64,000 bases of DNA, taken from NCBI GenBank assembly GCA_026390735.1, contig JAPLFJ010000012.1:1-64000 (forward strand), in the 5' to 3' direction. The notes beneath the pieces are model-generated. The model was given only the letters and a program-made list of their open reading frames with translations. It did not search any database and was not told where the DNA came from. A program made the translations under genes and the position numbers. The stretch is from Ignavibacteriota bacterium. Lineage in GTDB: Bacteria; Bacteroidota; Ignavibacteria; Tepidaquicellales; Tepidaquicellaceae. Below, one piece after another: positions 46,238 through 48,511 of the stretch (the stretch's first letter is position 1; each line of letters starts with the position of its first letter).

Positions 46238-46400
46238 ATGAGATAGGGCTGTATTAAGTCTGTATAAGGGCTGTATGCATTAGCATAACGTGAGCCACTG
46301 TAGGGAATTGTAGATTGAACTAATTGTCACATTATTGACATTTTGAGTGTTTAATTATTATGTTAAGTGGGCTTTAAACTCAATTGCAAAAGTAAACATA

Positions 46401-46513
46401 CCGTGCCTACAGCACGGGGTCTCATTTATTATATTTTCTACTAACATTCCGTACCTACGGCACGGGGTTTCTGTTTCCATATTTTCTACAAACATTCCGT
46501 ACCTACAGCACGG
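46401..46513. repeat. Three-copy 48-bp repeat with palindromic core
   Basis: CCGTGCCTACAGCACGG at 46401 and close variants at 46449 and 46497 are spaced exactly 48 bases apart. Each is a 6-bp stem around a 5-nt loop. The spaces between them are also alike (ATTTTCTACnAACATT), so this is a tandem repeat and not a CRISPR array. Confidence 0.88.
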
Positions 46514-46733
46514 TAATTTTCGTTATAATTTATTCACTTAATCACCTACTTACATTTTCACTTTCTTACTCATTCACTTTCTTACTTTCTCACTGATTTA
46601 TTTATTTGATAAAATAATTTCTTTGTATTAAAAATAATAACTTGTAAGTATTAGAGAATATTTATAAATTAAAAACATTGGGGAAAGTTTTTAGAGGGGT
46701 CTAAAAGCTTTAAATACGGCAAAACGCAATTAG

Positions 46734-46790
46734 GGTTAGGGTTTAAAGTACCGATTAACAAAATCGGAAGTTTAAGCTTTAACCTTTTTG
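46734..46790 (+). terminator. Long imperfect hairpin with T run
   Basis: GGTTA (46734), TTTAAA (46742) and CCGATT (46751) pair in order with AATCGG (46762), TTTAAG (46771) and TAACC (46780), followed by TTTTTG. It could end a transcript starting in the gap; no gene lies just upstream. The 5' arm contains TTAGGGTTAGGG. Confidence 0.5.
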
Positions 46791-46841
46791 TGTTTTAAAG
46801 AGATTATGCAGATAGTATATTTGAATAACGATTGATAATAA

Positions 46842-46871
46842 TTGATTTGATTTGTAAACGTTCTTTATAAA
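46842..46871 (+). promoter_or_regulatory. Candidate promoter of the structured RNA
   Basis: TTGATT at 46842-46847 and TATAAA at 46866-46871 are separated by 18 bases. The expected start of transcription is about 46878, shortly before the first pairing arm of the RNA. Confidence 0.5.
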
Positions 46872-46877
46872 TAGGAT

Positions 46878-47046
46878 TTTTACGTAGCTTCTGCTATGTT
46901 CTATGCTGGAAACTGGTAATTTTCAAATCACTAAGAACAAGCGAGACGGCTGCGTCCAGAGATGGACGCCGCTTTCTTATGTCTTTAGTGATAGGTATAC
47001 CAGTACCTCAGCGTAGGACGTAATGTTAGTTGCGTCCTTTTTTATT
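46878..47046 (+). ncRNA. Candidate structured non-coding RNA, rod-like, about 170 nt
   Basis: Nested pairings form a long rod. GTTCTATGCTG (46898-46908) pairs with CAGCGTAGGAC (47009-47019), 11 pairs including G-U. ACTGGTA (46912-46918) pairs with TACCAGT (46998-47004). ATCACTAAGA (46927-46936) pairs with TCTTTAGTGAT (46982-46992). AAGCG (46939) pairs with CGCTT (46970), and GCGTCCA-GAGA-TGGACGC forms the tip. A terminator, AGGACGTAA (47015) with TTGCGTCCT (47030) plus a T run, closes it, and its 5' arm shares bases with the outermost stem. A promoter-like pair precedes it. Size and shape suit a 6S-type RNA that binds RNA polymerase, but no diagnostic sequence confirms this. A leader of the gene at 47230 is the alternative. 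Confidence 0.6.
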
Positions 47047-47229
47047 TTTATAATTGAAAATGTACTTTAAAAGTTATACTTGATTTCTTTAGCAGTGACA
47101 GAAAACAAAAGGGAGAATTCAAACTAAAACGAATTTTGAATTGCTTCTATATAAATAATAGATTGCAATTCACCAAACAAATTTAAAAGGATATATTACA
47201 TTAAAAACATTTAAAGAAAGGAAATCAAA

Positions 47230-47589
47230 ATGAAAATTGCAGGTGCGGTAATTGGAATTGTAGCAGGAGTATTAGGGCTTATTGGAGGTTTTGCCACTGT
47301 TTTCCTTGGTGAAATTGGTAAAAGTTTGGAAACCGATGGTGCTTCAACTGTTTCAAATTTAGGAGTAGCTGCCTTTTGGGTGTCTTTTGTGATTATAATT
47401 GTTTCAATTATTATTTTTAAAGCACCAAGGATTCCAAGTATTCTACTAATAATTCTGGCAATATTGGCAACAATATTCAGTAATTATTTCTCTGGGCCAC
47501 TAGCTTTACTTGGTGGAATATTTGGGCTTATAGCATCATTCAGAAATAACAATATTAAAAAAACAGAATTAAACAATATTTCTAATTAA
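47230..47589 (+). CDS. Small four-TM membrane protein (DUF4064-like)
   Basis: A 119-residue product with four hydrophobic segments (about 4-27, 45-62, 68-84 and 88-106). The Gly-rich first segment MKIAGAVIGIVAGVLGLIGG and the SILLIILAILATIFS stretch are like DUF4064-type small membrane proteins of unknown role. AAAGGAA precedes ATG. It starts a run of three small plus-strand genes (gaps of 10 and 63 bases) 184 bases downstream of the structured RNA. Confidence 0.75.
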   Translation: MKIAGAVIGIVAGVLGLIGGFATVFLGEIGKSLETDGASTVSNLGVAAFWVSFVIIIVSIIIFKAPRIPSILLIILAILATIFSNYFSGPLALLGGIFGLIASFRNNNIKKTELNNISN

Positions 47590-47599
47590 ATTATAAATT

Positions 47600-48043
47600 A
47601 TGAAAACCATTAAAACAAATTCATATATAAATTATATTATATCTTTAGTAATTTTATTCGCTATAATTTTGGCATGTGGAAAGTCAAAAGACCAATCGAC
47701 AAATTCAAATAGCAATACTAAATCAGAAGATTCTCCAAGCATAACAGTAAGTGCTTCGCAGTTGTACTCTGATTATGACGCAAACGAAGTTTCGGCAGAT
47801 AATAAATATAAAGGGAAAATTTTAAAAGTGTCAGGTACGGTTGGCGAAATTAGAAAAGATTTTACGAATGATATTATCGTAGAACTTAAAGTGGGAGATA
47901 TATTTAAGAAAATAGATTGTACATTTGGCAAAGAGGCTACTGAAACTGCCAATTTATCAAAAGGTCAGAATATTACAGTTATAGGAACATGCTCAGGTTT
48001 TCTTATAAAATCAGTACAACTAAAAAAATGTAGAATTCAATAG
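47600..48043 (+). CDS. Lipoprotein with OB-fold tRNA_anti-like domain
   Basis: A 147-residue product with a lipoprotein signal (ILACG, Cys about 26), a short Ser/Asn-rich linker and a domain of about 95 residues. That domain matches the tRNA_anti-like OB-fold lipoprotein family: ASQLYSDYDANEVSADNKYK, GKILKVSGTVGEI, VELKVGDIFKKIDCTFG, SKGQNITVIGTCSGFL. Despite the name the family is extracytoplasmic and its ligand is unknown. It starts 10 bases after the membrane-protein gene, so the two are co-transcribed. Confidence 0.82.
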   Translation: MKTIKTNSYINYIISLVILFAIILACGKSKDQSTNSNSNTKSEDSPSITVSASQLYSDYDANEVSADNKYKGKILKVSGTVGEIRKDFTNDIIVELKVGDIFKKIDCTFGKEATETANLSKGQNITVIGTCSGFLIKSVQLKKCRIQ

Positions 48044-48106
48044 TTATATATAGTCTTAGATACAAAATGTTACCATCTGTAGTTTATAAATATTAACAAT
48101 ATAATA

Positions 48107-48511
48107 ATGAAAGCAATTACATTTCCATTAGTTATAATTTTATTTGTAGTAGTAATGATAAATACAAGTTATTCGCAAACTACATTCGAAGCAAAAGGCT
48201 TAGAAATTACAATTAATAGTTCAGGTGCTTGGTACAGTGATAACGAATTTATAACCCCAAAAAACGGATTTATTTATTACACATTGAATGTGACGATATT
48301 AAATATAAGTAATGAAACAAAGAATGTTAATCCTTTATATTTTTCTTTAATTGACGGAGAAGGATATAAATATGATATTTCATTTATGGGAAAAGAACCT
48401 AATTTAGGATATGGAAATTTGTCTCCAAGTGATAAAATGAGAGGGTATATAACATTCGAAATATTAAAAGGTGCTACAGATCTTAAAATTCAGTATAATT
48501 CATTGTTTTAA
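48107..48511 (+). CDS. Exported DUF4352-like protein
   Basis: A 134-residue product with a signal peptide (cleaved at SYSQ) and one immunoglobulin-like beta-sandwich: GLEITINSSGAWYSD, NGFIYYTLNVTILNISNET, NPLYFSLIDGEGYKYDI and LSPSDKMRGYITFEI. This is the strand layout of DUF4352/Telomeric-repeat-factor-like extracytoplasmic domains. No function is known. It is the third of the small plus-strand group. Confidence 0.72.
   Translation: MKAITFPLVIILFVVVMINTSYSQTTFEAKGLEITINSSGAWYSDNEFITPKNGFIYYTLNVTILNISNETKNVNPLYFSLIDGEGYKYDISFMGKEPNLGYGNLSPSDKMRGYITFEILKGATDLKIQYNSLF

Follow-up and report, generated by a model that had tools for sequence, protein, structure and literature searches.

A multi-copy, rod-shaped leader RNA of Bacteroidota with mutually exclusive pairings and a probable role as a conditional terminator

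The window (the whole 64,000-nucleotide stretch of DNA analyzed here) carries one copy of a rod-shaped RNA that belongs to a multi-copy family. We consider it probable that this RNA is a 5'-leader acting as a conditional intrinsic terminator, that is, a cis-acting transcription attenuator that, along with its promoter, has been copied to positions ahead of many genes of unrelated kinds; that the rod RNA itself is real we regard as practically certain. The family is not in Rfam 15 and is found ahead of genes for SusC/RagA transporters, ECF sigma factors, response regulators, and RteC-like proteins. Bacteroidota are a major phylum in the gut, in soil, and in the sea, and to our knowledge few classes of regulatory RNA have been described in them. 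Were the attenuator reading true, the family would constitute a general-purpose ON/OFF module for unrelated genes and would explain the reuse of one promoter cassette across a genome. Its alternative pairings lead to precise mutation predictions, and what opens the terminators becomes directly testable.

The interval 46878-47046 folds with a minimum free energy of -70.5 kcal/mol, compared to a mean of -39.1 kcal/mol for 200 dinucleotide shuffles (z = -8.0; none of the 200 equaled it), so that the fold is far better than that of shuffled sequence, a comparison named as a test in an earlier note on this DNA. The strands follow one another in the RNA in the order W-P1-P2-P3-X-Y-P3'-P2'-P1'-Z-U-run (Table 1), and the rod is nearly palindromic. 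The five nested stems drawn in the earlier note were recovered, namely P1, P2, P3, and two more inside them. A local 3' terminator hairpin (47016-47037), followed by T6, has bases in common with the outer stem. The minimum-energy and centroid structures of the window copy are near-equal and between them display both the rod and the terminator folds. The conflict named earlier, outer stem against terminator, thus holds for the window copy, which is of the Ignavibacteria type; the conflict conserved across the family is instead X-Y against Y-Z, together with W-X against X-Y. The multi-copy nature of the element and the alternative Y-Z and W-X pairings are additions of the present analysis.

Table 1. 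Strands of the RNA and neighboring features, in window positions
Feature	Position	Strand	Remarks
Upstream imperfect hairpin, accessory	46721..46796	+	Fold -35.8 kcal/mol, z = -6.6
Promoter-like block ATTTG-N11-TATAAATA (whole block ATTTGTAAACGTTCTTTATAAATA)	46850..46873	+	Conserved in sister copies
Strand W, 5' hairpin ACGTAGC..GCTATGTTC	46882..46901	+	Partner of X in the alternative fold; W-X duplex test
P1 5' arm	46900..46908	+	Variable, full compensation; two-sided changes in 7 of 8 pairs, 97% paired
P2 5' arm ACTGGTA	46912..46918	+	Lies in the 5' hairpin loop when the alternative fold forms; invariant in alignment A2
P3 5' arm	46927..46935	+	Two-sided changes in 6 of 8 pairs; duplex test p = 7e-21
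Strand X	46934..46957	+	Pairs with Y (rod) or W (alternative)
Strand Y	46963..46983	+	Pairs with X (rod) or Z (terminator)
P3 3' arm	46983..46992	+	Covariation on homologue alignment
P2 3' arm TACCAGT	46998..47004	+	Flanks GGU/ACC covary
P1 3' arm	47009..47017	+	Covariation on homologue alignment
Strand Z and U-run (U-run 47038-47043)	47016..47043	+	Complementary to Y; supplies the 3' half of the terminator stem
First downstream gene, 119-aa membrane protein (weak DUF308)	47230..47589	+	Presumed controlled
Next two genes: tRNA_anti-like lipoprotein (47600-48043), DUF4352 protein (48107-48511)	47600..48511	+	Pfam

The rod helices are supported by comparison among copies. In an alignment of 16 homologous copies of fixed orientation, 90.8% of rod pairs are kept, as against 35%–49% after sliding by one to three columns. 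Two-sided changes occur in 24 of the 45 rod pairs, and the covariation score is 0.455 versus 0.209 for shuffled alignments (500 of 500 shuffles lower); the compensatory changes in relatives that had been suggested as a check on the fold are thus strong. P1 and P3 are free to vary with full compensation and are divergent even within one genome. P2 (ACTGGTA/TACCAGT) is nearly invariant, with compensated versions at loci L044 and L045 (CTGCC/GGCAG and CTGGGG/CCCCAG) and at L216 and L221. The three bases flanking UACCAGU also covary (GGU/ACC, GGC/GCC, and two other types once each); counted over the copies, the P2 flanks are GTA/ACC in 124, GCA/GCC in eight, and CCA/GGC and CTA/AGG in one each. 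At paired sites of alignment A2, G-U outnumbers A-C by 82 to 22, an excess that points to the sense RNA strand. A column-wise test with a tree-based null found significant pairs only in P1, which also supplies the top covarying columns. Across the phylum, strands W, X, Y, and Z resist column-by-column alignment; this is why P1 alone is recovered, and why these four strands were analyzed with an alignment-free duplex test with cross-copy and nearest-neighbor controls.

That test, run on 90 dissimilar copies, set the energy of each duplex formed within a copy against that of duplexes formed across copies. Pairing inside a copy is stronger for W-X (-14.1 versus -9.3, p = 6e-29), Y-Z (-19.9 versus -14.0, p = 1e-26), and X-Y (-20.1 versus -14.6, p = 2e-21), and no excess is seen for W-Z (-7.5 versus -7.3, p = 0.26). 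A control that is stricter on shared ancestry, setting each copy against its closest relative, leaves W-X (p = 7e-5), Y-Z (p = 5.5e-7), and X-Y (p = 6.6e-7) significant and W-Z, W-Y, and X-Z not significant; under this control the effect is modest, with a copy's own pairing better in 61%–63% of cases for the three supported duplexes. A closing helix between W and Z looks attractive when the window copy is folded singly, but was rejected for want of support across copies. W-X and Y-Z each exclude X-Y, which yields the 1:2/2:3/3:4 layout of classical attenuators.

Folding the halves separately gives a similar picture. The 5' half alone forms W-X in 135 of 135 copies, and the 3' half alone contains Y-Z in its minimum-energy fold in 134 of 135. 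The full RNA adopts the rod in 108 of 135 copies, with a median gain of only 7.5 kcal/mol. In copies from outside Ignavibacteria, the sequence leading up to the U-run folds at a median of -0.7 kcal/mol, no better than shuffled. These copies keep the U-run and have no local terminator hairpin in that sequence, which leaves Y-Z as their sole possible terminator stem. Ignavibacteria-type copies have a local terminator hairpin too (median -10.8). In the predicted two-hairpin fold, CUGGUA and UACCAG would lie at or near the hairpin tips, where they could form a possible kissing pair.

Classical trp and his leaders and Bacteroid-trp (RF01692) resemble this RNA in their exclusive 1:2, 2:3 (antiterminator), and 3:4 (terminator) pairings, after which come a U-run and then a gene. 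The RNA described here differs from them in having no leader peptide, in not being tied to amino-acid genes, and in the extra P1 and P3 helices and complementary P2 loops that embed the switch in a rod. Leader-peptide attenuation was considered and set aside: the longest ORF of the 5' stretch has a median of eight codons versus 23 in shuffled sequence, and an ATG is present in 27 of 135 copies. There is no conserved short ORF, which makes such a mechanism unlikely.

A terminator/antiterminator layout is also what a metabolite riboswitch would show, with a small molecule binding the P2 region and the internal loops and stabilizing either rod or terminator, and many copies do contain a conserved block, GAAAACTGGTAATTTT / GGTATACCAGTACC. 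The crcB and pfl-motif riboswitches likewise combine a conserved fold ahead of diverse genes with a terminator that overlaps the structure (PMC2864571). We nonetheless consider this reading unlikely. P2 and its flanks are replaceable by compensated sequences at the four loci named above, leaving few invariant letters, and an invariant ligand pocket like that of the crcB and pfl classes is not evident when even P2 changes by compensation. Loci found by pattern scan carry the pattern letters by construction, so letter conservation there is partly built in. In addition, the downstream genes have no common pathway, and such contexts suggest no ligand.

The earlier note had placed a -35/-10 pair ahead of the RNA; this E. 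coli-type wording is unsuitable, although a conserved promoter-like block is indeed present (Table 1). The same block, ATTTGTAAACGTTCTTTATAAATA, also stands 5' of a cobalamin riboswitch in a relative (G035; L007:1286-1534, - strand), which supports it as the promoter of the lineage. Across the family, the canonical Bacteroidota -7 box TAnnTTTG is found 5' of 94 of 138 copies (12 expected) and just 3' of the U-run in only three of 138, and 115 of 138 copies have a U-rich tail. Promoter and U-run lie on opposite sides of the RNA, and their orientation is fixed. The accessory hairpin further upstream lies 5' of the promoter and has been copied along with several of the RNAs in the window's genome.

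A DNA search of 59 relatives found six copies in the window's genome and further copies in several others. A covariance model built from the 16 oriented copies raises the count in the window's genome to eight, and shows the element to be patchy within the family, where several relatives, some of them in the same genus, lack it. With this model the element is found in 42 of 294 genomes of the class and, among 395 Bacteroidota genomes sampled, in 41; single finished genomes of another order of the phylum have up to eight copies. A scan of named genomes with the pattern ACTGGTAATYTT N60-90 TATACCAGTA returned at least 119 stretches, and the family is present in at least 100 named genomes; the matches listed include Flavobacterium, Chryseobacterium, Elizabethkingia, Mucilaginibacter, Pedobacter, Chitinophagaceae, Bacteroides, Parabacteroides, and others. 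Several own-genome copies have in common a unit of 320–460 bp that runs from ~190 nt 5' of the first BLAST query through the U-run and contains the accessory hairpin and the promoter block. Outside it, the copies have different flanks and unrelated downstream genes, indicating that the promoter was copied along with the leader as one cassette. For an empty-site comparison of the window copy, the orthologues in relatives, at 36%–42% identity, are too diverged.

Such a common unit ending at the U-run, together with the long inverted repeat, the patchy distribution, and the copies on plasmids and viral contigs, would also be expected of a palindromic mobile DNA element (MITE- or REP-like) in which the inverted repeat matters as DNA and the RNA features are incidental. 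We judge this to be very unlikely. The promoter and U-run sit at opposite sides in fixed orientation with a co-oriented gene downstream; the within-genome divergence of P1 and P3 is fully compensated, with G-U favored over A-C; and Y-Z and W-X covary beyond what a palindrome requires.

If the first ORF of 100 aa or more that follows is taken as the downstream gene, it is co-oriented with the RNA in 124 of 129 copies (p = 4e-31), as compared to a random orientation of the upstream neighbor (62 to 63). Co-orientation persists when the 39 SusC/RagA genes are left out (85 of 90) and at loci found only by the covariance model (28 of 30). The gene starts no more than 60 nt past the U-run in 33 copies, in 21 of which the distance is 45 nt or less, leaving no room for a separate promoter. 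SusC/RagA genes account for 39 of the 124 co-oriented genes, ECF sigma factors for seven, and receiver-domain proteins for at least four; rarer families include RibD_C/DHFR (three) and RteC (two), along with many singletons. A link to defense was considered and rejected, PADLOC giving only scattered single matches among the downstream genes.

At SusC loci the gap between RNA and gene is typically 200–470 nt, and these genes could have their own promoters. Gaps of this size in many SusC loci, and the RNA's own promoter and terminator in most copies, are compatible with a free-standing family of trans-acting sRNAs for which gene proximity would be incidental and the terminator would merely end the RNA. 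Precedent exists in Bacteroides, where the multi-copy paralogous FopS sRNAs (~65–70 nt, with a common 5' seed, R1') act in trans on susC mRNAs (PMC11697453). FopS and GibS resemble the present family in copy number, Bacteroidota promoter, and connection to SusC (PMC11697453); compared by description and not by sequence, the RNA here is longer (~165–180 nt), is structured differently, has no common unpaired seed, and lies in cis upstream of genes. We regard the trans-acting reading as improbable, albeit the most serious of the rivals: co-orientation is confined to the downstream side, 21 copies have no space for another promoter, the conserved mutually exclusive helices would be purposeless in a simple sRNA, and a conserved unpaired seed is absent.

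In Flavobacteriia, the RNA most commonly lies between a small, divergently oriented Xre-type HTH gene and SusC. This arrangement recurs with SusC/RagA at loci L071, L075, L078, L090, L099, L140, L164, and others, where an ECF sigma factor or RteC-like protein can precede SusC/RagA; the divergent HTH protein might regulate the promoter of the RNA. At four other loci, in Bacteroides, Parabacteroides, and a contig binned as Pelotomaculum, the RNA stands 46–52 nt before a RibD_C/DHFR-like gene; the Pelotomaculum-binned copy was probably mis-binned or transferred.

The attenuator reading is favored by the findings that the three exclusive helices covary within copies and W-Z, W-Y, and X-Z do not; that the halves alone form W-X and Y-Z and the full RNA is mostly rod, at a median difference of only -7.5 kcal/mol; that Y-Z is the only terminator stem outside Ignavibacteria; and by the co-orientation, the short gaps, the upstream -7 box, and the G-U excess. 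Counting against it are the SusC gaps, the lack of a common pathway, the local hairpin of Ignavibacteria, which is independent of Y, the modest effect under the strict control, and the situation of the window copy itself. There, the gene at 47230 begins 184 nt past the U-run region, and between them TTCTATATAAATA (47145-47157) repeats the RNA's promoter block (46861-46873, 92%) and may be a separate promoter for that gene. The gap and this block leave the gene's dependence on the window copy in doubt. A conditional attenuator was among the readings of the earlier note: comparative evidence supports it for the family, and its application to the gene at 47230 is inferred from family-wide co-orientation.

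Under the attenuator reading, a transcript of ~165–180 nt would start at the RNA's own promoter. As X emerges, the 5' half would form the W-X hairpin with CUGGUA in its loop, and once Y, P3', P2', P1', and Z have emerged, one of two outcomes would follow. Y and Z could pair beside the U-run, forming the terminator and turning the gene off. Alternatively, the loop CUGGUA would pair with UACCAG (P2) and the halves would zip together through P1 and P3; X-Y would then form the long rod, Y would be lost to the terminator, and polymerase would read into the gene. The presumed trigger shifting this balance might be a protein, a ligand, polymerase speed, or temperature.

A more far-reaching form of the attenuator reading, which we advance only tentatively, is that of a phylum-wide promoter and self-zippering attenuator cassette, whose halves are hairpins with complementary loops (CUGGUA/UACCAG) and in which kissing versus completion of the 3' hairpin sets termination. 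If so, the RNA would amount to an intramolecular "sense/antisense pair," the fast-evolving P1 and P3 would let each copy recognize itself alone, and a single cell could employ many copies independently of one another, each movable to a place before any gene.

None of the 4,227 families of Rfam 15 matched the window or the other copy-bearing loci scanned above the gathering score; the best sub-threshold match in the window is frnS (21.9 of 60 bits). Flavo-1 (RF01705) and 6S-Flavo (RF01685) are likewise structured RNAs predicted in Bacteroidetes, and both fall below the gathering score in every scanned copy. The 6S-like RNA proposed in the earlier note, which would bind RNA polymerase, shares the long rod and similar size. 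6S RNA usually exists as one conserved housekeeping copy per genome, binds RNA polymerase, and templates pRNA. The present element has no Rfam 6S match in the window, occurs patchily in up to eight copies per genome, and is positioned upstream of co-oriented genes, and we give the 6S reading almost no weight. The search for 6S-Flavo gave no match in the window's genome, nor did it give one in any control genome.

In the literature text searched, no paper contained the conserved strings, and the main text of large-scale RNA-discovery papers (supplements aside) held no matching motif. A catalogue from the human microbiome lists palindromic, terminator-containing candidate RNAs of Bacteroidetes (HMP2_4205, HMP2_1032, and others), one of them near TonB genes (PMC8040213). 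Compared by description only, these are like the RNA here in all three respects, and one could be a member of the family; the excerpted text of that paper reports no analysis of alternative pairing. The attenuator as a kind of device is already known. What appear to be new are the family itself, the three-way pairing that it combines with a self-complementary rod, and the way it is reused ahead of genes unrelated to one another.

Several minor observations concern the spread and surroundings of the element. At nine loci, in Elizabethkingia, Flavobacterium, Chryseobacterium, Moheibacter, and Sphingobacterium, near-identical RNA copies precede a receiver-domain-like protein starting METGT, a resemblance in sequence that suggests recent horizontal transfer between families. 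Two Lentisphaerae MAGs have copies with differing letters and the same Y-Z and X-Y pairing, reflecting either transfer beyond Bacteroidota or binning errors. Four IMG/VR viral contigs also carry copies, as does a mobilizable Rhizosphaericola plasmid. One locus has a complete copy and then, ~150 nt 3' of the RNA, a truncated repeat of its 5' part (GCAAACGTGCTTTTTTCGCTATGTTCTGAATC). In the window, three tandem 48-nt repeats (46395-46538), each with a short palindrome (CCGTACCTACGGCACGGGG-like), lie directly 5' of the cassette.
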